Shown here one piece after another: positions 7,240 through 34,677 of a DNA stretch of 34,677 nt. The DNA lies in assembly GCA_937858895.1 (NCBI GenBank), contig CALLZN010000445.1, positions 1-34,677 of the forward strand, in the 5' to 3' direction. The DNA comes from an uncultured bacterium. Lineage in GTDB: Bacteria; Planctomycetota; UBA1135; GCA-002748355. Positions within the stretch are counted from its first letter, which is position 1. Every line of letters begins with the position of its first letter. The notes under the pieces are model-generated. The model did not search any database. It saw only the letters and a program-made list of their open reading frames with translations, and was not told where the DNA came from. A program made the position numbers and the translations under genes.

Positions 7240-8943
7240 TCAGCCCTGCTTGTCGTTCGCCTTCGATGCGTCTTGCTTGGGCGTGACGTCGAGCCAATCC
7301 ACCTTGAACGAGAAGGCGAAGTCGCCACCGCTCTGGTTGACTTGAGTCTCGCGCACGGGCACGCCGCGCCGCAGCAGCTCGTCCTTGAAGCCCTGGAAAC
7401 TGCTCACGAGGTCCTTGCCCGAGATCGACTTGCCGCCACCCGAGACGATGAGGTGAGGACGCGGCGGGAGCTTCTTGGGCCTGCCAGTGCCCGTCGCGGC
7501 GTCGCTTTGGCCCGCCTTGATCCAAGTCGGCTCACCGACCTTCGTCTCGAGCTTCGCGATCCAGAGGTCACCCGGCAGGACTTCGCGCATCGCACGAAGC
7601 GTGAGCGCGCTCCCATAGAGCGGGACCGCGCGCGTGCGCAGCTCGGCCAGCATTTTTTCGCGGGTCTCGTTCTTTTCGGCGAGGGCCGTGGTCTCGTTGT
7701 TGACCGAGTTGAGGGCCCTGACCTTGGTCGAGAGCGCGCTCTCTTGGCGCTGAGCCTCTTCGAAGCGCGACTTCGCGTCGAACCAGCGCCAGCCGAGGAA
7801 GGCAAGCGCGAGGACCGCCGCGACGATGTTGAAGATCGTACGCGTCTGGAAGCGACGACGCTTCTTGACGGCCTCCGGCAAGATCTCGATCGAGTAGAGC
7901 TCGTCGAAGAGCGGGGTCAGAGCGAGGCCGATCGCGAGCGCGGCTTCGGGACCCTGCTCGGTCAGCAGCGCCTGCTCCTCGGCCGAGAGCGCCGACATGT
8001 CGAGGTTCTCGATCGGATCGAAGACCGCGACCCGACAGCCGAGCCCGTCCGCGAAAAAGGCTGCCATGCCGCGGATGCGCACGCCCGGACCACAGATGTA
8101 AACGCGGTCGAGCTTGAGGTTCTCGACGCCGGTCTGCGTCTGGCAGAAAGCGAGCGTCGAGCGCAGCGCCGCCTGGAGCTGGCCGGCAACGCCCTGAACG
8201 GAGTGCGTCGCCTTCTCTTCTTGTGAACTCGCGTAGCGTCCGCGGGACTTCGGGTCGAGGTCGAGCAGCTCGTCGCGGATCTTCTGCGCGCGATTCTCAC
8301 GCACGTTGAAGGTCTGGGCGATCGCCGTATCGAGGACTTGCAAGCCGCCCGACACGTTGCGTGCGAACAGCAAGTTCGTGCCCTGCAACAAGGCAATGTC
8401 GATCGCCGTTTCACCGATCCACGCGACGAGCGAAACGTCGTCGGTCGAGACCGGACCGAGCGTGAGGAAGGCGTTGTAGAGCGCGACGGCGTTCGGCACA
8501 TAGGCCTCGACCGTGCCCTTGCGGGACGCCAGCATCGAAGAGATGCCATCGAGGTGGCTGTCCTTCGCGAGCGCGAGCAAGACCGTGTCCTCGCCGGTCA
8601 TCTCGTTCGCGACCGGCAAGAGGTTGTAGTCGGCGCTCAAGGAACCGCCAGCTTGCCCGGAGATCTCATCGACTTCGAAGTCCATGAGCTTCGCGAGCTG
8701 CCAGTCGGGAACCTGGGGCACGCGCACGTAGCGCAAGATCAGCTCCCGGCCCGACAAGCCGGTCACGACGTTGCCGAGCGTCGCAGCCCCGCCGAGCCGC
8801 TGCCCGTCGCGCGCGAGGACTTCACAGGCGACGACCTGGAAGCTCGTGCCCTTTTTCTTGCCGCCGACCTTCTTGCCCTCGACGAGGAGGGCGTCCTGAT
8901 TGCGCAGGTCGAGCCCACGCGCGCTGCTTCCCATGAACGTCAT
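7240..8943 (-). CDS. PilM-PilN fusion (GspL-like platform protein)
   Basis: Encodes 567 residues joining two components of the type IV pilus/type II secretion inner platform. Residues 1-350 are an actin-like PilM-type domain, with SLVAWIGETAIDIALLQGTN (about 171-190) and DRVYICGPGVRIRGMAAFF (about 279-297) as the phosphate/adenosine-loop-like segments. Residues 352-363 read IEILPEAVKKRR, equivalent to the INLLP motif that opens PilN. A membrane helix follows (about 370-387), then coiled coil (390-440) and a periplasmic PilN-like domain. GspL has the same cytoplasmic-actin/TM/periplasmic layout, so this is a GspL equivalent. It starts at ATG 8943 in an ATGA overlap with the upstream gene; Met4 is an alternative start. 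Confidence 0.82.
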   Translation of the reverse strand: MTFMGSSARGLDLRNQDALLVEGKKVGGKKKGTSFQVVACEVLARDGQRLGGAATLGNVVTGLSGRELILRYVRVPQVPDWQLAKLMDFEVDEISGQAGGSLSADYNLLPVANEMTGEDTVLLALAKDSHLDGISSMLASRKGTVEAYVPNAVALYNAFLTLGPVSTDDVSLVAWIGETAIDIALLQGTNLLFARNVSGGLQVLDTAIAQTFNVRENRAQKIRDELLDLDPKSRGRYASSQEEKATHSVQGVAGQLQAALRSTLAFCQTQTGVENLKLDRVYICGPGVRIRGMAAFFADGLGCRVAVFDPIENLDMSALSAEEQALLTEQGPEAALAIGLALTPLFDELYSIEILPEAVKKRRRFQTRTIFNIVAAVLALAFLGWRWFDAKSRFEEAQRQESALSTKVRALNSVNNETTALAEKNETREKMLAELRTRAVPLYGSALTLRAMREVLPGDLWIAKLETKVGEPTWIKAGQSDAATGTGRPKKLPPRPHLIVSGGGKSISGKDLVSSFQGFKDELLRRGVPVRETQVNQSGGDFAFSFKVDWLDVTPKQDASKANDKQG

Positions 8944-20164: not shown

Positions 20165-21859
20165 TCAGACGTAGACGCTGACCAAGTAGACGACGAGCAA
20201 GATCGCGGCCACGAGCGCGGCCGGCCCTGTGGGCCACGGCTCGCCGAGCGGGCCCGGCGGTTGGTAGAGCTTGCGCAGGACATGGCCAACTCGTCGCGTG
20301 ATGGCAGCAGCCATCCCGACCAGGGTGAGGTACACGAAGGCGCACGCGATTCCGACGCGCACGCCTATTGCCGGCAGGGGCCGGCGATAGAACCAGTCGG
20401 CGCCGAGGATGGTCGCGCGGCGCTCACTCGGATAGAGGCGCAGCTTCTGCAGGACGAGGAAGGCCAAGATCGCGAAGACGAGGAGCTGCAGCTGCGTCAC
20501 GATGTGAGCCATCGTGTAAGGCGTGTAGTCGACTCGGTAGGGCAGCAGCGCGTAGAGCGGCCCGTAGAAAACCCCGAGGCCGATGCAGAGCGCCGCCGCG
20601 ATGCCCATGGCGACGAGCATGTTCTTGGGCGCTTCCTTCGGGCGCTTGCCGCTGTCGTGCGCGAAGAAGGCGAAGTACGGGATCTTGATGCCGCTGTGCT
20701 CGAGCACACCGGCGGATGCGAAGAGCAAGATCAAGAAGACGACGTCATGGTGCCCCTCGGCGGCGGCGCTCAAGATCATCGACTTGGACGTGAAGCCGCT
20801 GAAGAGCGGAAAGGCCGAGATCGCCGCCGCCCCGATGATGCAGAAGGTGGCCGTCCACGGCATCGACTTGTAGAGCCCGCCGAGTTCGCTCGCCTTCACG
20901 GTTCCAGCGCGGTAGAGCACGGCCCCCATCGCCATGAAGAGCAGCGACTTGTAGAGGATGTGCGCGAAGGCATGGGCAGCCGTGCCGTTGAGCGCGAGCT
21001 CGGTACCAATGCCGATGCCGACAACCATGAAGCCCAACTGGTTGTTGAGGCTGTAGGCCAAGACGCGCCGCAGGTCGTTCTCGATGACCGCGAAGAAGAC
21101 CGGGAAGACCGTCATCACGCAGCCGATCGGGATCAGGATCTCCGTGCCCGCGTAGCCGCGCGCGAGCGCGTAGATCGCTAGCTTGGTCGTGAACGACGAG
21201 AGCCAGACCGACCCGGTCGCCGTCGCCTCCGGGTAGGCGTCCTGCAGCCAGCCGTTCAAGAGCGGGAAGGCCGCCTTGATGCCGAAGGCAACGAAGATGA
21301 GGTCGCGCCCGAGGCTGCCGAGGCCCAAGGCGCCGAAGGCGAGCGACCCTGTCTCGCCGTAGTGCAGCAAGGTGCCTGCGAGGAGCAGCACACCCGAGAG
21401 AACTTGAACGACGAGGTAGCGCAGCGCGGTGCGCGTCGCTCGATCCGTTCGTCGCGCGAGGATGAGGAAGACCGAGGTCACCGCCGTCAGCTCCCACCAG
21501 ACGAAGAGCGTGACGAGGTCGCCAGCGAAGAGCGCCGCCACGCCGCTGCCCGCATAGGCGATGCCAGCGCTCTGCTGCATCGTGTCCTTGACGTGCAGCG
21601 AGAAGATGACGCTGATCAGCGCAGCGAGATAAAATACGTAGCCGAAGACCCGGCTCAACGCGTCGACGCGCACGACTTCGAAGAGGTAGCCCTCGAAGGG
21701 CTGCCACTGCATCGAAAAACCGTTCGGCAGCAACGCCAGTTGCACGGCGCCCAAGATCGGCAAAGCGATGAGGACAGCGCTGCGCAGTGAGCCGCGCAAG
21801 AAGAGCGCGAGCACGCCGCCAAGGACGAGGAAGAGGCCTGGTGGCACGGCTTCAAACAC
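20165..21859 (-). CDS. Third Mrp/NuoL-M-N-type ion-translocating subunit
   Basis: Encodes about 564 residues with some 14 membrane helices, homologous to MrpA/MrpD and complex I antiporter-like subunits. LVTLFVWWELTAVTSVFLIL carries the conserved helix-5 glutamate. FGIKAAFPLLNGWLQDAYPE carries the helix-7 lysine and the loop before helix 8. FTTKLAIYALARGY and DLRRVLAYSLNNQLGFMVVG are also typical. The C-terminal portion extends past the antiporter core (WFYRRPLPAIG onward), as in long D-type subunits. GTG 21859 overlaps the upstream small gene by 8 bases (GTGTTTGA). It probably fills the place of the missing MrpA N-terminal half. Confidence 0.85.
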   Translation of the reverse strand: MFEAVPPGLFLVLGGVLALFLRGSLRSAVLIALPILGAVQLALLPNGFSMQWQPFEGYLFEVVRVDALSRVFGYVFYLAALISVIFSLHVKDTMQQSAGIAYAGSGVAALFAGDLVTLFVWWELTAVTSVFLILARRTDRATRTALRYLVVQVLSGVLLLAGTLLHYGETGSLAFGALGLGSLGRDLIFVAFGIKAAFPLLNGWLQDAYPEATATGSVWLSSFTTKLAIYALARGYAGTEILIPIGCVMTVFPVFFAVIENDLRRVLAYSLNNQLGFMVVGIGIGTELALNGTAAHAFAHILYKSLLFMAMGAVLYRAGTVKASELGGLYKSMPWTATFCIIGAAAISAFPLFSGFTSKSMILSAAAEGHHDVVFLILLFASAGVLEHSGIKIPYFAFFAHDSGKRPKEAPKNMLVAMGIAAALCIGLGVFYGPLYALLPYRVDYTPYTMAHIVTQLQLLVFAILAFLVLQKLRLYPSERRATILGADWFYRRPLPAIGVRVGIACAFVYLTLVGMAAAITRRVGHVLRKLYQPPGPLGEPWPTGPAALVAAILLVVYLVSVYV

Positions 21860-22182: not shown

Positions 22183-23730
22183 CTAACCTCCGACCGATCC
22201 GTCCTTCACGACGGGCGCGAGCAGCGCGTAGAGGTCGCTCGCAAAGTAGAAGAGGAGCAAGCAATAGACTGCGGTGATCGTGAGCGGCACGACGCACAAC
22301 ATCGGCGCCTCGTGCACGCCCCCCGTCTCACCGTGCGCCGCGTGGTCACCGTGCGCCGCGTGGTCACCGTGCACGCCGTGATCACCGTGGCCATGCCCCG
22401 CCCCCACCTCGGGCCGGCAGAAGAAGCCCCGCAGCACGACCGGCATCAAGTAGCCGATCGAGAGCAGCGAACTCAGCATGTAGACCCCAGCAAAGATCGC
22501 GTGGTGCGCATCGACGGCCCCCATCGCGAGGAAGAACTTGCTCCACGACCCACCGGTCGGCGGCAGGCCAATGATGCTGAGCGAAGCCACGAAGAAGGCG
22601 CCGAAGGTCACCGGCATGCGCCGCCCAAGCCCGCGCATCTGCGACACGTCGGTCTTGTGCGTCGCGACCATGATCGCGCCCGCGCAAAAGAAGAGCGTGA
22701 TCTTGGCCGCCGCGTGCATCGCGATGTGCATGCCGCTGCCGATGATCGCCGCCGGCGTCGCGAGCGCCGCGCCGAGCACGATGTAGGCGAGCTGGCTGAT
22801 CGTCGAGTATGCGAGCCGCGCCTTGAGGTTGTCCTTGGTCAGCGCGACCAGCGACGCCGACACAATCGTGAAGGCGGCGACGTAGCCGAGCCAGAGCGTC
22901 GCATCGCCGTCTCGCAAGAAGTCGATGCCGAAGACATAGACCACGATCTTGACGACCGAGAAGACACCAGCCTTGACGACCGCGACCGCGTGCAAGAGCG
23001 CGCTGACCGGCGTCGGCGCGACCATGGCCGCCGGCAGCCACTTGTGGAAGGGCATCAACGCCGCCTTGCCGATGCCGAAGGCAAAGAGCAAGAGCAGCAC
23101 CGGCGTCAGCGAAGGGTCGAGCTTACCCGCGAGGATGCCGCCACTGCGGAACTCGAGCGTGCCAGCGCTCGCATAAGTCCACGCGATCGCAAAGAGCAAG
23201 AAGGCGACCGACGTCGAGACGAGGATACCGAGGTACTTACGCCCCGCTTGCTTGGCCGCCTCGGTCCCCGCGTGCGTCACAAGCGGATACGTCGAGAAGG
23301 TCAAGAGCTCATAGAAGAGGAAGAGCGTGAAGAGATTCCGCGCAAACGCGATCCCGAGCGCCGCCGCGATCGCGAGCGCGAAGCACAAGAAGAAGCGCGT
23401 CTGGTGCTCTTCGTTGTGGCCTCGCATGTAGCCGAAGGCATAGATCGACGTCAGCGGCCACAAGCCCGCCGCGACGAGCGCATAGACCAGCCCCAACGGC
23501 TCCACTTCGAAGGCCAGCGCGAGGCCCGGCAGGACCTCGAGCAGCTCGAGCGAGAGCCGCGCGTCGTCGCCGTGGAAGCGCGCGATCACGATCACGAAGC
23601 CGAGCGTCGCGAGGCCAACGATGACCGATAGCGTGTCACGCACGTTCGGCCAACGACCGAAGAGCAGAACGAGGAGCGCACCACAGCAGGGCGCGAGCAG
23701 GGCGGCCTGTATCGCTTGCTCGGGGGTCAT
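22183..23730 (-). CDS. Second NuoL/NuoM-type ion-translocating subunit with His-rich loop
   Basis: Encodes 515 residues from ATG 23730 (ATGA overlap with the upstream mrpD). About 13-14 membrane helices. Antiporter signatures: NLFTLFLFYELLTFSTYPLV (helix-5 Glu), GIGKAALMPFHKWLPAAM (helix-7 Lys, PFH-x-WLP) followed by APTPVSALLHAVAVVKAGVF (helix-8 Lys/His), and KARLAYSTISQLAYIVLGAA. These match NuoL/NuoM/MrpA-D closely. Near the C-terminus, between the last helices, is a histidine-rich hexapeptide repeat region (GDHAAH), which is unusual. A frame running further upstream is rejected because it overlaps mrpD wholly. Confidence 0.88.
   Translation of the reverse strand: MTPEQAIQAALLAPCCGALLVLLFGRWPNVRDTLSVIVGLATLGFVIVIARFHGDDARLSLELLEVLPGLALAFEVEPLGLVYALVAAGLWPLTSIYAFGYMRGHNEEHQTRFFLCFALAIAAALGIAFARNLFTLFLFYELLTFSTYPLVTHAGTEAAKQAGRKYLGILVSTSVAFLLFAIAWTYASAGTLEFRSGGILAGKLDPSLTPVLLLLFAFGIGKAALMPFHKWLPAAMVAPTPVSALLHAVAVVKAGVFSVVKIVVYVFGIDFLRDGDATLWLGYVAAFTIVSASLVALTKDNLKARLAYSTISQLAYIVLGAALATPAAIIGSGMHIAMHAAAKITLFFCAGAIMVATHKTDVSQMRGLGRRMPVTFGAFFVASLSIIGLPPTGGSWSKFFLAMGAVDAHHAIFAGVYMLSSLLSIGYLMPVVLRGFFCRPEVGAGHGHGDHGVHGDHAAHGDHAAHGETGGVHEAPMLCVVPLTITAVYCLLLFYFASDLYALLAPVVKDGSVGG
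22328..22390. repeat. 18-bp tandem repeats coding a His-rich loop
   Basis: The plus-strand unit TCACCGTGCGCCGCGTGG occurs twice exactly (22328-22345, 22346-22363), then once diverged (22364-22381) and once partially. On the minus strand each unit encodes a hexapeptide such as H-G-D-H-A-A. The resulting loop has about ten histidines alternating with Gly/Asp, a composition suited to binding divalent metals. Confidence 0.9.
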
Positions 23731-25265
23731 GGCGCAGTTCCGAGGAGTTGTTGGGCGGCGAGCCGCGCGATGCCAGCGCTGTGGTCGGTCGAGATGCCGA
23801 ACCAGAGCGAGGCCAGGGCCAGGAGCCAGACGGGCAGCAACATCGCGAGCGGCGCTTCGCGCACGGTCTGCGCGCTCGAGCCTTCCGAGGCTTTGCTGAA
23901 CCACGCAACCTCGACCAAGCGCCACACGTAGACGACGGCGAGCAGAGAGCTCACGAGCGTCAAGAAGGCGACAACGTGGAGATCACGCTCGATGGCGCCG
24001 ACGACCAAGTACCACTTGGAGACGAAGCCGACCGTGCCCGGCACACCAATGAGGCCCAAGCCGAAGATCAGGACCGCCCCCATCGTCCACGGCATGCGGC
24101 GACCAAGGCCTCGCATGTCTTCGATCTTGACCGACCCGAGGCGGAAGAGAATGCAGGCGACAGCGAGGAAGAGCCCGCCCTTCATCACGGCGTGGTTGAA
24201 GAGGTGGACGATGCCGCCAACGAGCCCGCTCTCGCTATTCAGGCTGATGCCGAGCGTCATGTAGCCGATCTGCGCGATCGACGAATAGGCGAGGAGGCGC
24301 TTGATGTTCAGCTGATAGATCGCCGCGATCGACCCCATGAACATGGCCGCGACCGAGAGCGGCAAGAGGATGCGGTCGAGGTTCATCTGCTCGAAGGAGC
24401 GCTCACGTCCGAAGATCGTGAAGATGACCCGCAGCATGACGTAGAACGCGACCTTGGTCGCGGTCGCCGCCAAGAAGGCCGAGACCTTCGGCGGTGCGAA
24501 GGTGTAGGCGTTGGGCAGCCACTGGTGCAGCGGGAAGACTGCGAGCTTGATCGACAGCCCGATGAAGAGCATCGCGAAGGCCACCGAAAGAGTCCGGACA
24601 CTCGAGACGTCCGCGAGCCGCTCCGACAGATCGACGATGTTGAGGGTGCCCGTCATCTGGTAGAGCATCCCGACGCCGATCAAGAAGAAGAGCCCGCCGA
24701 TCGTGCCCATCGTCAGGTACGAAAAGGCCGACATCAGGGCGCGCCGCTCCGAGCCGATCGCAACCAGCGTGTAGGCGGAGAGCGAGCTGATCTCGAGGAA
24801 GACGTAGATGTTGAAGAGGTCGCCCGTGACCGTCATGCCGAGCAAGCCGGCAGCGCAGAGCGCGTAGACGGCGTAGACGACGTTGTGCCGCCCGGGCGGC
24901 ACCGCGAAGGCACGCGGGTTCTGCCCGAAGGGGATGACGATGGCCGCCATCGCCGAGACGATGAGCGCGACGAAGGTGTTGATGAGGTCGTAGCGATACT
25001 CGATACCGAGCGGCGGCGGCCAACCGCCAAGACGGTAGGACACGACGCCTTCGTCGAGCACGCGGCCGAGCAGTTGGACGACCATCGCGAAGCAGGCGAC
25101 AGCCGCGAGGCCCCCGATCGCCCTTGCCAGGTTCGCGTGACGAACCAAGAAGCACAGCGGCGCCGCCAACATCGGCAGCACGACGACGAGGACCGGGAAG
25201 TGCTCGGTCAAGGCCTCGAGCGACGAGGCCCAGTCGGCTAAGGGCGCGAACATGTGAGCGATCAC
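23727..25265 (-). CDS. mrpD: MrpD/MnhD-like antiporter subunit
   Basis: Encodes 512 residues from GTG 25265 (GTGA overlap with mrpC; ATG 25253 is an alternative). About 14 membrane helices. The conserved antiporter residues lie in GDLFNIYVFLEISSLSAYTL (helix-5 Glu), IKLAVFPLHQWLPNAYTFAP (helix-7 Lys and the PLH-x-WLP-x-AY motif), SAFLAATATKVAFYVMLRV (helix-8 Lys), and LNIKRLLAYSSIAQIGYMTL. Its position directly after mrpC matches the standard Mrp gene order. In Mrp complexes the D subunit exchanges Na+ (or K+) for protons. Confidence 0.92.
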   Translation of the reverse strand: MIAHMFAPLADWASSLEALTEHFPVLVVVLPMLAAPLCFLVRHANLARAIGGLAAVACFAMVVQLLGRVLDEGVVSYRLGGWPPPLGIEYRYDLINTFVALIVSAMAAIVIPFGQNPRAFAVPPGRHNVVYAVYALCAAGLLGMTVTGDLFNIYVFLEISSLSAYTLVAIGSERRALMSAFSYLTMGTIGGLFFLIGVGMLYQMTGTLNIVDLSERLADVSSVRTLSVAFAMLFIGLSIKLAVFPLHQWLPNAYTFAPPKVSAFLAATATKVAFYVMLRVIFTIFGRERSFEQMNLDRILLPLSVAAMFMGSIAAIYQLNIKRLLAYSSIAQIGYMTLGISLNSESGLVGGIVHLFNHAVMKGGLFLAVACILFRLGSVKIEDMRGLGRRMPWTMGAVLIFGLGLIGVPGTVGFVSKWYLVVGAIERDLHVVAFLTLVSSLLAVVYVWRLVEVAWFSKASEGSSAQTVREAPLAMLLPVWLLALASLWFGISTDHSAGIARLAAQQLLGTAP

Positions 25266-25672
25266 AGCGCCGCGCTCTCCCGCTTCGAAGTCTCGTGGTC
25301 GGCCGCGAGGATCTCGTCCTCTTCAGCGCTTCCGTAGCTCGCCTTGATGCGCACGACGAAGGACAAGCCGAGCGCGTTGGTCGCGACGCCGACGACAATG
25401 GCCGTCAGCATGAGGACGTGCGGAATCGGATTGGAGTAGTCCACGTCGCGCGCGGCGGTCGCCACGGCCTCGGCCTCCATCGTCGCCAGGATCGGCGCGG
25501 TCCCATCGCGCACCTTGCCCATGGCGACGAAGAACATGATGACCGAGACCTGCGTGATCGTGAGACCGAGGATCTTCTTCACGAGGTGCTGTCGCGAGAT
25601 GACGGCGAAAAGGCCGACCATCATCAACACGATGCACGCGTGGTAATGCCAGAGTCCGAGGTAGGCGCTCAT
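25262..25672 (-). CDS. mrpC: MrpC/MnhC antiporter subunit (NuoK-like)
   Basis: Encodes 136 residues with three membrane helices, related to complex I NuoK: LMMVGLFAVISRQHLVKKIL, GLTITQVSVIMFFVAMGKV, and PHVLMLTAIVVGVATNALGL then SFVVRIKASYG. The N-HVLMLTAIVV-A-ALGL segment is diagnostic for MnhC/NuoK. An acidic tail follows. ATG 25672 overlaps the mrpB stop (ATGA). Confidence 0.92.
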   Translation of the reverse strand: MSAYLGLWHYHACIVLMMVGLFAVISRQHLVKKILGLTITQVSVIMFFVAMGKVRDGTAPILATMEAEAVATAARDVDYSNPIPHVLMLTAIVVGVATNALGLSFVVRIKASYGSAEEDEILAADHETSKRESAAL

Positions 25673-26112
25673 CGGCCGCGTTCCGCAAAGAGATAGAAAA
25701 TGAGAGTCATCCCGCTCGCGACCGCCATGAGGACACCGAACTCTACGAAGAGGATGCCTAGGTGCTGGCCGTGGACCGGGTGGGCGACATCGAGCTTGCC
25801 GTACTCGAGGTAGCGTCCCCCTTCGAGCATCGTCGCGACGCCGGTAGCGATCCAGATCAGGACGCCGAGAGCGACGCCGACCTCGACCCAGGGCTTGGGG
25901 ATCACGGCCTTCGCGGCGTCGACCCCGTAGATCAAGCCGTAGAGCACAACTCCTGCCGCGAAGATCACGCCGGCCTGGAAGCCGCCGCCGGGACCGAAGT
26001 CACCGTGGAACTGCACGTAGAACGCAAACAGGAAGAAGAACGGCAGCAACGACTTGGCGGCGACGCGCAAGATGGTGTTCTCGCGCATGCGCATGTGCTT
26101 GGGCCTTGTCAC
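25669..26112 (-). CDS. mrpB: MrpB/MnhB antiporter subunit
   Basis: Encodes up to 147 residues with four membrane helices. HGDFGPGGGFQAGVIFAAGV (the H-x-x-PGGGFQ-G signature) and GQHLGILFVEFGVLMAVASG are characteristic of MnhB. It starts at GTG 26112 (GTGA overlap with the preceding gene), with the downstream RENTILRVAAKSLLP being the usual family beginning, so an internal ATG is possible. Confidence 0.92.
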   Translation of the reverse strand: MTRPKHMRMRENTILRVAAKSLLPFFFLFAFYVQFHGDFGPGGGFQAGVIFAAGVVLYGLIYGVDAAKAVIPKPWVEVGVALGVLIWIATGVATMLEGGRYLEYGKLDVAHPVHGQHLGILFVEFGVLMAVASGMTLIFYLFAERGR

Positions 26113-26639
26113 GGCTTCGCCCCCTTGCCCGTTCCGAGCATGAGGATGACGCCGAGCACGGCCGTGAAGACCACGAAGCTCTCACCGAAGGTGTCGTAAC
26201 CGCGATAGCTCGCGAGGACCGTCGTGACGACGTTCGGGATCTCGAGCTCGGCTGAGCCGCGGATGAAGTCGGGCGCCAAGTGACGGTGGATGACCGCGTT
26301 GGCATCACCATAGTGCGGCATGTCGAGCGTCCCGTAGATCAGCGCAGCACCCGTCAATGTGACGACGACGAAGGGAAAGATCTGCCCGCGCTTCTTCGCT
26401 TCGCGGCTGCCGGTCAGCGAGAGCGCGCCGAGGCTCAAGACCGTGGCGACACCGGCGCCGACGGCGGCTTCGGTGAAGGCAACGTCGACCGCGTCCATGA
26501 GGACGAAGAGCCCCGCTGACAACAAGCTGAAGATGGCCGTCATCATCGACGCCGCGTAGAGATCGCGCAGACGCGCGACCTGGACGGCAGTCACGAGCAG
26601 CAGCAAAAAGAGAAACGCCTCGACCGGGACGTCCATCAC
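26109..26639 (-). CDS. MrpA C-terminal-like subunit (DUF4040 plus MbhE-like)
   Basis: Encodes 176 residues with about five membrane helices. The first half (LRDLYAASMMTAIFSLLSAG, then MDAVDVAFTEAAVGAGVATV) is the NuoJ-like segment found at the MrpA C-terminus and in MbhD. The second half (EIPNVVTTVLASYRGYDTFG followed by ESFVVFTAVLGVI) matches MbhE and the end of MrpA. So the MrpA C-terminal half is a separate gene here, as in membrane-bound hydrogenase-type (Mbh) operons. It starts at GTG 26639 or ATG 26636, overlapping the mrpG stop. Confidence 0.88.
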   Translation of the reverse strand: MMDVPVEAFLFLLLLVTAVQVARLRDLYAASMMTAIFSLLSAGLFVLMDAVDVAFTEAAVGAGVATVLSLGALSLTGSREAKKRGQIFPFVVVTLTGAALIYGTLDMPHYGDANAVIHRHLAPDFIRGSAELEIPNVVTTVLASYRGYDTFGESFVVFTAVLGVILMLGTGKGAKP

Positions 26640-26983
26640 TCCTGCCCTCCGCCGGATTCGTCATCGCCGACGTTGTCGCAGTGCACACGCAAGCCGCCCG
26701 CATAGGCTGCCTTGACGAGGGCATGCGTCGCGGTCGGGCTCGCGATCAAGATGAGCCAGAAGATGATCACGAGCTTGACGACGACGAGGAAGGACGGTGC
26801 TTGCAACGCGAGCCCGGCGAGGACGAGGCCAGCGCCGAGCGTGTCGATCATCGATGCGGGGTGCGTGCGCGCGTAGAAGTCGGGCAAGCGCAAGAGGCCG
26901 ATCGCTCCGATGATGCACCAGATGGCGCCTGCCGATAGCAGCAACCAACTGAGCGCGTCGAGCACGAAGTCGAGGACGACCAT
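26636..26983 (-). CDS. mrpG: MrpG/MnhG antiporter subunit
   Basis: Encodes 115 residues with three membrane helices. LLLSAGAIWCIIGAIGLLRL and PDFYARTHPASMIDTLGAGL are the classic MnhG signature (GLLRLPDFY-R-H). The following hydrophobic stretch, KLVIIFWLILIASPTATHAL, is also conserved. ATG 26983 overlaps the mrpF stop by one base (TGATG). The longer frame reaching 27319 is not real. Confidence 0.93.
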   Translation of the reverse strand: MVVLDFVLDALSWLLLSAGAIWCIIGAIGLLRLPDFYARTHPASMIDTLGAGLVLAGLALQAPSFLVVVKLVIIFWLILIASPTATHALVKAAYAGGLRVHCDNVGDDESGGGQE

Positions 26984-27264
26984 CAAGGCTGCTCCTTCAC
27001 GCGCTCGTCGTCGGCGAGCCCGCCGAAGCGCGCATACTTGGCGACCGCCACCGTGCCCACGAAGTTGACGAGGGCATAGACGATCGCGAGGTCGAGCCAC
27101 TCGGGTGGACCGGTCCAGAAGCCAGCGACCGGGATCAGTAGAATCGTCACGGTGCCGAAGGCGTTGGCCGCGAGCAAGCGGTCGTAGGCCGTCGGGCCAA
27201 GGACTCCGCGTACCAAGACGAGCAGCATGGTCACGAGGACGCCGCCGAGGGCGACGTCGAACAT
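26983..27264 (-). CDS. mrpF: MrpF/MnhF antiporter subunit
   Basis: Encodes 93 residues with three membrane helices. RGVLGPTAYDRLLAANAFGT matches the MnhF signature (R-GP-x-x-DR-x-A-x-N), and LDLAIVYALVNFVGTVAVAK then YARFGG is the conserved C-terminus. Start ATG 27264 lies 8 bases past the mrpE stop; the upstream in-frame extension is within mrpE. Confidence 0.93.
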   Translation of the reverse strand: MFDVALGGVLVTMLLVLVRGVLGPTAYDRLLAANAFGTVTILLIPVAGFWTGPPEWLDLAIVYALVNFVGTVAVAKYARFGGLADDERVKEQP

Positions 27265-27272
27265 GGAGAGAC

Positions 27273-27767
27273 TCAAGGTGTCGGTCCTCCCGGCAGCGGT
27301 TGCCCTTCGAGGGCAGCACAACGCCGCCCCATGTCGCCGGTCAGCACACCGTCCGCAGCCTCCTTCGTGAGCGCGTGGACGAGCAGCGAGCCCGCTCGCA
27401 GGTCGAGGGTCGTCGTGCCCGGCGTGAGTGTGATGGAGTTCGCATAGACGACTTGCGCGAGCTCGGACTTCGGCGTCGCCTCGACCCGAAGCAGGCGCTG
27501 CTGGATTTGCATACGCGGCGAAAGAATGACGCGCGCGAGCTGGAGATTGGACTTCACGATCTCGCTCAGCAGGTAGGGCAGGTAGCGCAGCGGCCGCAGC
27601 CCGAGCTCGTACTGGATGTCATCGCCGTCGAAACGATCCATGCGGGCGGCGAGCCACGTGACAACGAGACAGGAGCCGAGGCCGAAGCCGAGCAAGAGCT
27701 TCGTGAAGTAGCCCGACAGAACGATCCAGGTCGCCGCGAGCATGACGAAGACCATGAGGGAGCGCAT
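27273..27767 (-). CDS. mrpE: MrpE/MnhE antiporter subunit
   Basis: Encodes about 164 residues with two N-terminal membrane helices (LMVFVMLAATWIVLSGYFTK, LLLGFGLGSCLVVTWLAAR) and a cytoplasmic domain. RYLPYLLSEIVKSNLQLARV and YANSITLTPGTTTLDL are diagnostic for MnhE (the N-SITLTPGT motif). Start: ATG 27767, or GTG 27770 just before it. The stop codon of a 21-codon cysteine-rich frame overlaps this start (TGATG), implying translational coupling. Confidence 0.93.
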   Translation of the reverse strand: MRSLMVFVMLAATWIVLSGYFTKLLLGFGLGSCLVVTWLAARMDRFDGDDIQYELGLRPLRYLPYLLSEIVKSNLQLARVILSPRMQIQQRLLRVEATPKSELAQVVYANSITLTPGTTTLDLRAGSLLVHALTKEAADGVLTGDMGRRCAALEGQPLPGGPTP

Positions 27768-27832
27768 CACGCGGGCTGGCCTTTGCAGCCGTAGCTATTG
27801 CAGCCGTGGCCTTTGCAACAGTCGGGTCGCAT
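27767..27832 (-). CDS. 21-residue cysteine-rich mini-gene coupled to mrpE
   Basis: A 21-codon frame from ATG 27832 (or GTG 27835) that ends in TGATG with mrpE. The core reads DCCKGHGCNSYGCKG: four cysteines, one histidine and repeated glycines, with an internal repeat G-C-(K/N). It is preceded by GAGGAG at 27843-27848, the clearest Shine-Dalgarno in the window, 7 bases before the GTG or 10 before the ATG. No family is recognised. It could be a metal-binding peptide, or a leader peptide whose translation controls mrpE. That it is translated is inferred from the ribosome site and the coupled stop. Confidence 0.6.
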   Translation of the reverse strand: MRPDCCKGHGCNSYGCKGQPA

Positions 27833-27842
27833 CACTACTAAG

Positions 27843-27848
27843 CTCCTC
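27843..27848 (-). promoter_or_regulatory. Strong Shine-Dalgarno before the cysteine-rich mini-gene
   Basis: GAGGAG on the minus strand, spaced 7 bases from GTG 27835. It is notable because most starts in this window lack a clear ribosome site. It serves the mini-gene rather than mrpE, whose start is about 75 bases further on. Confidence 0.65.
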
Positions 27849-27888: not shown

Positions 27889-27923
27889 GGGTCCCGCCGG
27901 CAAGTTCCGTTGCGAGGGGACCC
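27889..27923 (-). promoter_or_regulatory. Possible leader hairpin upstream of the Mrp operon
   Basis: On the minus strand GGGTCCC (27917-27923) can pair with GGGACCC (27889-27895). Inside the loop GCAA pairs with TTGC (27910-27913 and 27900-27903), giving a two-step hairpin. It lies about 50 bases upstream of the mini-gene in the 172 bases between rlmI and the Mrp operon. It could be a leader regulatory structure or part of a terminator for rlmI, though no U tract follows. No known sodium riboswitch consensus could be confirmed by eye. Confidence 0.4.
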
Positions 27924-28004
27924 TCCCGTATCGGCCGCCGACGCGACAACGCTAAAACTGCGGCCGCCAAAATGCGAGGCCACGGGTGACAAGCTCGCGG
28001 GATT

Positions 28005-31583: not shown

Positions 31584-32125
31584 CGACAAACAAGACTGTA
31601 GCGCAGCGTGCCACGATCGATCGCCGCTGCTGGTGCCAGCTCGAGCACGAAGCCGAGACGCTCGAAGAAGTGCCGAGCAATGAGGTTCTCCGCCTCCACA
31701 TCGACGAAGAGCAGTCCAGCGTCGTTGCCGATCTGGGCAATCGCGTGGGCGACGAGTAGGGCGCCTAGCCCGGCGCGACGATGGTCGCGCAGGACCGCAA
31801 GGGTCAGCTCGGCGCCGAAGGCGCTGCGATCGATGACGACGAGGCCGACGGGCGCGGCGTCGGAGAAGGCGACATGCGCGCTTCGTCCAGGCCGCTGGGG
31901 CAGCCCACCGTCACTCCCGCGACGCGAAAAATCGACCCAAAGATCGCCCTCGAGGGCGTCAAGGAGCACATGGGCCCGAGCGTCGAGCGCACGGATTTCG
32001 ACGGCCAACGAGGCGCGGGCTCCAACATCGCCGGTTCCGACACCGCGGGACACAGTCCCAGGATCTTCGGGGTCAAGGAGGGGCGGGGCCAGGAGGGCCG
32101 GGGCAAAAAGGGGAACGTCACCCAC
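31580..32125 (-). CDS. GNAT family N-acetyltransferase
   Basis: The frame from GTG 32125 encodes 181 residues. The core GNAT fold is visible: a beta strand PVGLVVIDRSAFGAELTLAV, acetyl-CoA pyrophosphate loop DHRRAGLGALLVAHAIAQI (the R/Q-x-x-G-x-G/A motif), then LLFVDVEAENLIARHFFERL and GFVLELA, the usual end. The acceptor substrate cannot be predicted. The first 40 residues are proline/glycine-rich and doubtful; the true start may be internal, near VEIRALDARAHVLLDALEGD. The stop overlaps the following gene by ATGA. Confidence 0.78.
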   Translation of the reverse strand: MGDVPLFAPALLAPPLLDPEDPGTVSRGVGTGDVGARASLAVEIRALDARAHVLLDALEGDLWVDFSRRGSDGGLPQRPGRSAHVAFSDAAPVGLVVIDRSAFGAELTLAVLRDHRRAGLGALLVAHAIAQIGNDAGLLFVDVEAENLIARHFFERLGFVLELAPAAAIDRGTLRYSLVCR

Positions 32126-32558: not shown

Positions 32559-33777
32559 GAACGCCGATCTGGTCCGCTACATCGACAGCATCCACCGCGA
32601 CAAGGGCATCGAAATCGAAGTCCTCTGGGTCGCGCTCGAGGACGCCCTGATCTCGGCGATCAAGAAGCGCTACGACATCGACGAAGAGTTCACCCTGAGC
32701 TTCGACCGCAACAGCGGCGCCCTCGACTGCGAGTACGAGATCGACTTCGAAGAGTTCGGACGCATCTTCGCGATGACGGTCAAGCAGTCGTGGTTCACGC
32801 GCATCAAGGAAGCCGAGCGCGACGTGCTCTTCAACGAGTGGGAAGCCAAGGTCGGCGACATCGTGACCGGCACGGCGCGACGCTTCGAAGGCGATTCCGT
32901 CATCATCGACCTCGTCAAGATCGAAGGCATCCTGCCGCGGTCGGAGCGCGTGCGTGGCGAGAACTACCACATCGGCGACCGTATCCGCGCCCTCATCCTC
33001 GAGGTCAAAAAGGTCGGCCTCAAGGTCAAGGTCATCCTTTCGCGCACGTCGACCGGCCTCGTCCGTCGCCTCTTCGAACTCGAAGTGCCAGAGATCGACG
33101 ACGGCATCATCGAGATTCGCAAGCTCGAGCGCGAGCCCGGCTACCGCACCAAGATCGCTGTGACGTCTTCGGACCAGCGTGTCGACTGCGTCGGCGCCTG
33201 CGTCGGGGTGCGCGGCACGCGCATCAAGTCGATCATCGACGAGCTCGGCGGCGAGCGCATCGACATCATTCGGTGGAACGACGATCCGCAGCAGATGCTG
33301 ATCAACGCCTTGCAGCCCGCCGAGGTCAGCCACATCGAGCTCGATCCGGACAATCACAAGGCGCTGGTCCTCGTCGAAGAGGACCAGCTCTCGCTCGCGA
33401 TCGGTCGAAAGGGACAAAACGTGCGCCTCGCTTCGAAGCTCTGCGGCTGGGACATCGACATCATGACCCGCCAGGAACTCGAAGACACCTTCCGCGAGGA
33501 CGGCGCAGCGCGCGACGAAAATCAGCCGGCGGCCGAGGGTGCAACCGAAGACGGTGCTGCTGAAAACGGTGCTGCTGAAGACAGCCAGAGCGCTAGCGGA
33601 GATGATGCTGGCGCAGCGACTGACATCGAAGCGGCGTCGGACGAGAGTTCGACGGGCGACGATGCAGCGAACGAAACAACCGCCGATGCGGGAACGAACG
33701 ACGAAGGCACGCTACCTGACTTCGACAGCGCAAGCAGCGAAGGCGGCGAAGGCAATATCGAGGAAAAGGTCGGCTGA
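32557..33777 (+). CDS. nusA: Transcription termination/antitermination factor NusA
   Basis: Encodes 406 residues. NusA binds RNA polymerase and nascent RNA, modulating pausing, termination and antitermination. Domains: N-terminal RNAP-binding domain (EVLWVALEDALISAIKKRYD), S1 domain at about 105-175 (GDIVTGTARRFEGDSVIIDL), then KH1/KH2 (CVGVRGTRIKSIIDELGGER; LSLAIGRKGQNVRLASKLCG). Instead of the C-terminal acidic repeats of proteobacterial NusA, there is a tail of about 90 residues that is low-complexity and Glu/Asp/Ala/Ser-rich, with the repeat ENGAAED/EDGAAEN. The ATG at 32557 begins NADLVRYIDSI; an in-frame upstream ATG at 32398 is not convincing. infB follows after 47 bases, the conserved nusA-infB order. 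Confidence 0.95.
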   Translation: MNADLVRYIDSIHRDKGIEIEVLWVALEDALISAIKKRYDIDEEFTLSFDRNSGALDCEYEIDFEEFGRIFAMTVKQSWFTRIKEAERDVLFNEWEAKVGDIVTGTARRFEGDSVIIDLVKIEGILPRSERVRGENYHIGDRIRALILEVKKVGLKVKVILSRTSTGLVRRLFELEVPEIDDGIIEIRKLEREPGYRTKIAVTSSDQRVDCVGACVGVRGTRIKSIIDELGGERIDIIRWNDDPQQMLINALQPAEVSHIELDPDNHKALVLVEEDQLSLAIGRKGQNVRLASKLCGWDIDIMTRQELEDTFREDGAARDENQPAAEGATEDGAAENGAAEDSQSASGDDAGAATDIEAASDESSTGDDAANETTADAGTNDEGTLPDFDSASSEGGEGNIEEKVG

Positions 33778-33824: not shown

Positions 33825-34677
33825 TTGGCGAAGCGAAGGGTTTACGAGTTTGCGAAGGACTACGGGATGCGAGGTCCCGAGTTCGTGGAGATATTGCACA
33901 ACCTCGGCTACGAGAAAGTCGCAACCCACATGGCCGTCCTCGACGACGCCGACCAAATGGTCCTCGAGATCCGGCTCGAAGCAGCAGGGTTCACGAAGAC
34001 CGCCGGTGGCGAGGGCGACACTGTCGAGGACGACAAGCCGTCTCCGCTGCGCAAGAAGAGCCCGATCCGCAAGAAGTCAGCCTCGTCAGGACCCGGGACA
34101 GGCACGCGCGACGACGATGCGCGGCAGACACGGGACGCCGACGACGCGACATCCGCGGACCTTCCCTTGCGCAAGAAGGCACTGCCCCTCCGCGACGCGC
34201 CGGGTCGCCAAGCACCCGCGGCCTCACGCGAGGCGCCGTCGACCGAGGCCGCGAGCGAGTCGGTCATCCCGCGCCCGCAAGTCGTCGAAGCGAAGGGTGC
34301 CGGCCCCGCGCTTCAGCGCGAGCCTGGCGACGAACCCACGCGCAAGGTCCCGGAGGCTCCACGTGTCGAGCCGACAAATGCGCCAGAAGTCGTGAACGCG
34401 GGGCACCGCCCCAGCGCTTCCCCGGAGCCGCGCGCGCCAAAGACAACATCCGACGAAGGCACGCCGCAGACGCCCGCTGCACGCGAGCCCGCTGCACGCG
34501 ACGTACCCGAGCCCGTCACCGCGCCTCGCGACATTTCTTCGCGGCCGGCGGCCGTGGCCCAAGCGGGATCGGGCGAGACCAAGGTCGAAGCCGCGCCCGA
34601 AGCCCAGCGTAGCCCTGCGACCGCCGACGCTCCGGCTCAGCCTGCCGAACAGCGTCAACCCGAACCGCGTCAACCCG
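33825..34677 (+). CDS. infB: Translation initiation factor IF-2, N-terminal part (runs off the window)
   Basis: The frame opens at TTG 33825, with GAGGTG 4 bases upstream, and stays open to the window end (284 codons). The first 55 residues form an IF2_N domain (KRRVYEFAKDYGMRGPEFVE, ILHNLGYEKVATHMAVLDD). A long disordered linker rich in Pro, Ala, Arg and Glu follows, with the repeats SPLRKKSP, LPLRKKALPLRD. The GTPase domain lies beyond the edge. The position directly behind nusA confirms the call. IF-2 delivers initiator tRNA to the ribosome. Confidence 0.93.
   Translation, partial: MAKRRVYEFAKDYGMRGPEFVEILHNLGYEKVATHMAVLDDADQMVLEIRLEAAGFTKTAGGEGDTVEDDKPSPLRKKSPIRKKSASSGPGTGTRDDDARQTRDADDATSADLPLRKKALPLRDAPGRQAPAASREAPSTEAASESVIPRPQVVEAKGAGPALQREPGDEPTRKVPEAPRVEPTNAPEVVNAGHRPSASPEPRAPKTTSDEGTPQTPAAREPAARDVPEPVTAPRDISSRPAAVAQAGSGETKVEAAPEAQRSPATADAPAQPAEQRQPEPRQP

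Follow-up and report, generated by a model that had tools for sequence, protein, structure and literature searches.

The window (the whole stretch of DNA analysed, 34,677 nucleotides) carries on its minus strand an mrp operon with the gene order E-F-G-(mbhD/E-like)-B-C-D-A, spanning 22183-27770. Its first gene is mrpE (27273..27770, minus; Pfam MNHE PF01899, E 3.4e-28), followed by mrpF, mrpG, the mbhD/E-like gene, mrpB, mrpC, mrpD, and mrpA (22183..27276, minus), as assigned from Pfam matches and frame coordinates. The mbhD/E-like gene is separate from mrpA, with a Pfam MbhD match of 2.4e-14 and MbhE below the cut-off, and Mrp gene clusters of irregular order are already known as Group 3, according to the available text of PMC5703873. 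Each of the seven junctions within the operon is an overlap by ATGA/GTGA/TTGA or TGATG, the mrpF junction being counted from its TTG start, and since this holds for every junction, translation through the operon would probably proceed by coupling. In the case of mrpE, its own ribosome site is weak and no upstream gene lies close enough for coupling. The gene upstream of the small frame described below gave a Pfam match to a SAM-dependent methyltransferase with a PUA-like domain, which we take to be RlmI-like. Within mrpA, we also observed an 18-bp repeat at 22328-22389 (minus; 3.4 copies, Tandem Repeats Finder score 96) encoding the histidine-rich stretch GDHGVHGDHAAHGDHAAHGE, which is possibly metal-binding.

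Directly before mrpE there is a short leader frame at 27767..27835 of the minus strand, starting at a GTG (27835) or an ATG (27832), ending at a TGA (27769-27767), and encoding (V)MRPDCCKGHGCNSYGCKGQPA. The original prediction had described a cysteine-rich frame of 21 codons here without naming the strand, and the plus strand at these coordinates reads differently; on the minus strand, the frame has 21 codons from the ATG or 22 from the GTG, and the four cysteines claimed for it are indeed found in the 21 residues of MRPDCCKGHGCNSYGCKGQPA. The claimed stop/start overlap is there as well, with the leader TGA lying inside the GTGATG (27765..27770, minus) that provides the mrpE start, either GTG or ATG, in the stretch GCGTGATGCG. 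A Shine-Dalgarno-like (SD) AGGAG at 27843..27847 (minus) lies 7 nt from the leader GTG and 10 nt from its ATG. The reading frame remains open further upstream (67 codons counted from a TTG), and among its listed starts, only for the ATG and the GTG do at least 4 bases match the SD.

The anti-SD duplex energy of the leader site is -8.1 kcal/mol vs. -3.2 kcal/mol for the bases upstream of mrpE itself. The AGGAG is thus real, but it is not the best ribosome binding site in the window, as had been asserted, given that 15 of the 567 ATG/GTG starts of frames of at least 100 codons in the window equal or exceed it. Within the operon, the leader site is surpassed by those of the mrpF TTG (-10.3), the mbhD-like gene (-10.0), and mrpB (-10.5), and the mrpG ATG at 26983 is found at -8.0. 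Several genes of the window are without strong ribosome sites, and the other starts in the range of -3.2 to -3.5, namely those of mrpC, mrpA, and the RlmI-like gene, have an upstream gene that overlaps them or ends within 4 nt.

Most of the leader cysteines lie in a 15-bp tandem repeat of about 2.7 copies at 27777..27817 (minus; Tandem Repeats Finder score 61), whose units TGCAAAGGCCACGGC, TGCAATAGCTACGGC, and TGCAAAGGCCAGCCC encode CKGHG-CNSYG-CKGQP, each unit opening with a cysteine codon. Lag-15 matching within the repeat reached 20 of 26 positions, with a maximum of 17 over 2000 shuffles. Three of the four cysteines and their appearance of a spaced motif are therefore explained by a short repeat with one cysteine per unit. 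Tandem duplication of a 15-bp stretch beginning with a TGC codon would have produced these cysteines in the lineage of the window, and we infer an expansion of the repeat in this lineage, as opposed to a contraction in that of G001, the other species compared below. Further tandem repeats with a 15-bp period occur in the 35-kb window at 8855-8883, 20171-20201, 32068-32112, 33547-33579, 34472-34501, and 34645-34677, and duplication of this length may be frequent in this genome. Frames of 15-30 codons having at least four cysteines number 2 of 94 in the window.

The close-relative comparison was made with one other genome of the genus (G001), where the RlmI-like gene, mrpE, F, G, the mbhD-like gene, B, C, D, A, and the next gene follow each other in unchanged order, with protein identities to the window of 75-92% across the locus and 56% for the last gene. 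Between the RlmI-like gene and mrpE, this genome has GGAGG, 7 nt, a GTG, the peptide VVPVVRTSGA, and a TGA overlapping a GTGATG, with GCGTGATGCG identical to that of the window. Its frame has 10 codons vs. 22 in the window and no cysteine. What the two leaders share is limited to a GTG start, a ribosome site equally far from it, and a TGA that overlaps mrpE; the 7-nt spacing is matched in the window by the leader GTG and not by the ATG. Conservation in close relatives had been named in the original prediction as the check, and the outcome is divided: the G001 frame has none of the cysteines and about half the length, while it does have a ribosome site spaced at 7 nt and a stop that overlaps mrpE. 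At the DNA level, identity between the two genomes is 76% in mrpE, 72% at the end of the RlmI-like gene, and 74% in the upstream non-coding block, but it falls to 59% over the 29 aligned bases of the leader and to 38% in the 13 bases that make up the ribosome site and its spacer, with no alignment between the SD bases of the two species. A ribosome site found at the same spacing without aligning bases is compatible with selection for the site and also with chance. The peptide has changed from one species to the other, VVPVVRTSGA vs. (V)MRPDCCKGHGCNSYGCKGQPA, with the architecture kept, and this conservation of spacing and overlap in spite of the divergence is suggestive, though no proof, of a leader in use.

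In a wider survey, MrpE was found in 11 of the 61 genomes in the set of relatives, counting the window's own, in 3 of the 8 genomes of the family, and in 23 of the 154 genomes of the order (E up to 1e-20), besides 80 loci from a genome contig collection. Removing 3 identical copies and 2 loci with less than 150 bases upstream from the 106 MrpE loci left 101 distinct ones. A coupled leader was defined as an ATG/GTG frame, 5-60 codons long and preceded by at least 5 bases matching the SD, whose stop overlaps or abuts mrpE. Six of the 101 loci have one: the window, G001, and four distant loci with unrelated peptides. By the same definition, none was found in the same-family genome G004, whose locus (L003) is identical to L013 in the compared stretch. 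The pattern CxxxxCxxxxC occurs upstream of mrpE in 1 of the 101 loci, that of the window. Three further loci (L023, L073, and L076) have at least four cysteines within 15 residues in some upstream frame, none of them with the cysteine spacing of the window and none in a coupled leader as defined above.

Searches with the peptide pointed in the same direction. Among the 154 genomes of the order it was found only in the window's own genome. As a candidate conserved small protein it was rejected, since a search of the eight genomes of the family returned itself (3.1e-11) and six other matches with E of at least 0.6, taken as chance, one of which sits in the window's own genome. The plasmid search gave no match, Pfam and NCBIfam gave none at E up to 10, and the PDB search gave a single match at E 2.4, also taken as chance.

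Between the RlmI-like gene and the leader lies a conserved non-coding block (27893..27979, minus) with 73.6% identity to G001 over 87 aligned bases, or 75% over 84 bases by BLAST (E 4.6e-9), which is about as conserved as the flanking genes and contains CTCGCATTTTG, GTTTTAGCGTTG, and CCGATACGG. It is possibly a candidate promoter or 5' UTR element; it gave no sigma-70-type and no Rfam match. RNAalifold on this block gave 24 pairs, 2 of them changed on both sides, which with two sequences is too little for a claim of structure. A structured RNA was considered for the locus and set aside, given that Rfam over the whole window found nothing at gathering scores and the matches near the site were weak and far below the cut-offs. 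An attenuator was likewise set aside, with a z of 0.04 for the RNA fold, no better than shuffles, and neither a sigma-70-type promoter nor a terminator-like site.

We lean, with somewhat more than even confidence, towards the leader being a minicistron whose role would be to deliver ribosomes to mrpE. A ribosome would bind the leader AGGAG, read the 21-22 leader codons, stop at the TGA overlapping the mrpE GTGATG, and re-start on mrpE. For such delivery it would be enough that the leader has a ribosome site, stays open, and ends in the stop/start overlap, whatever the peptide sequence, and the leader peptide is therefore probably incidental. We infer, from the letters of the two genomes, that the leader is translated and coupled to mrpE; what stands of the coupling originally predicted is a small frame with a ribosome site, so placed that its translation would feed mrpE. 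In favour of delivery, G001 keeps the site, the 7-nt spacing, the GTG, and the overlap, although site and spacer are only 38% identical. The -8.1 of the leader vs. the -3.2 of mrpE, the upstream genes that adjoin the other weak starts, the overlaps throughout the operon, and the repeat origin of three cysteines speak for it as well. The serious competitor, which we consider possible and less probable, is that the frame arose by chance and is unused, mrpE starting alone at its weak-site GTG/ATG or from a nearby transcript start, with a GTGATG that merely resembles coupling. When the upstream stretch was dinucleotide-shuffled, a coupled frame with at least 5 SD-matching bases appeared in 1.7% of the shuffles for the window and 3.9% for G001, and 4 of the 99 other MrpE loci have one, rates that are not negligible. 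TGATG occurs 55 times on the two strands of the window, and one of these sites has a coupled leader. The TGA adds no chance cost because GTGATG contains it, and the two shuffle rates are not independent tests, since the window and G001 are related. The absence from G004 of a coupled leader as defined above, the SD bases that do not align between the two species, the several genes here without strong sites, and the fact that one relative carries the comparison all weigh on the same side. Against a chance frame, both members of the genus have the site, identical spacing, and the overlap despite their divergence and despite frames of 10 vs. 22 codons.

The cysteines invite other readings; metal or redox sensing and an antiporter subunit had been part of the original prediction and find no support here. 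That the leader senses metal, redox state, or cysteine, with slowed or stalled translation gating mrpE, is unlikely: four cysteines in 21 residues and the published cysteine-bearing upstream frames (CutF, the mycobacterial cysteine-rich frames, and CruR) speak for it, while the syntenic frame of G001 has no cysteine, CxxxxCxxxxC recurs in none of the 100 other MrpE loci, and the peptide has neither a match in the 153 other genomes of the order nor one in Pfam or NCBIfam. The fold no better than shuffles and the missing terminator-like site count against it too; moreover, there is no room for a hairpin between the leader stop and the mrpE start because they overlap, and for the same reason a ribosome stalled late in the leader would be expected to cover the mrpE start instead of freeing it. 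To our knowledge, mrpE is not a metal or cysteine gene, which also counts against sensing. We regard as very unlikely a newly arisen, species-specific gate, in which the repeat expansion would have made a delivery frame on the Mrp operon responsive to cysteine or metal, with fewer ribosomes delivered to mrpE when the four cysteine codons are decoded slowly or the nascent peptide binds metal. As for a tiny, species-specific extra subunit of the antiporter, the first position in the operon is in its favour, but the peptide is not kept in G001 in an otherwise complete operon, no relatives of it were found, and its 21 residues are hydrophilic (hydropathy judged by eye) vs. neighbours that are membrane subunits, so that we give this idea hardly any credence.

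If ribosome delivery is correct, the locus would show clearly, in sequence, how a coupling leader can retain its architecture while its peptide changes wholly within a genus, with a modest bearing on how translation starts at the first gene of operons in which all genes are coupled. It would also be a caution against assigning function to residue-rich small frames made by short tandem repeats. In the titles and abstract openings of the literature on the Mrp antiporter, mrpE, and leader peptides, none concerned a leader frame before mrpE.

Among known systems, CruR (DUF2946) and CutF share with the window leader a cysteine-bearing upstream frame heading an operon, but according to the available text of PMC9426467 and PMC9973294 they are far longer (bp2923/CruR has 145 residues), their cysteines are conserved as CXXC or CxxxC, a proline-containing stalling motif stands at the C-terminus, and the target is preceded by a stem-loop in CutF and by Rho-dependent termination in CruR; neither these motifs nor either form of termination was found at the window leader, whose peptide ends in GQPA, has no CXXC or CxxxC, and gives no Pfam match (E up to 10) that would place it in DUF2946. 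The mycobacterial cysteine-rich uORFs share the short frame with several cysteine codons, but, in the available text of PMC4633059, they are conserved among mycobacteria and some precede cysteine-metabolism genes, neither of which is true of the window leader. The closest likeness is to the mycobacterial ribosome-delivering uORFs (Shell et al. 2015, PMC4633059; PMC12548453), for which it is described, in the text available, that a short frame may just deliver ribosomes to the next gene independently of its peptide. Those uORFs come with ribosome profiling and are partly leaderless, whereas the window leader is SD-led, belongs to a Planctomycetota MAG, and is known from its sequence alone. Both have a short frame with its own initiation signal, a stop overlapping the next start (here also in G001), and a peptide that, in the window leader probably, is of no importance; the leader before mrpE is real in its anatomy and ordinary in its kind.
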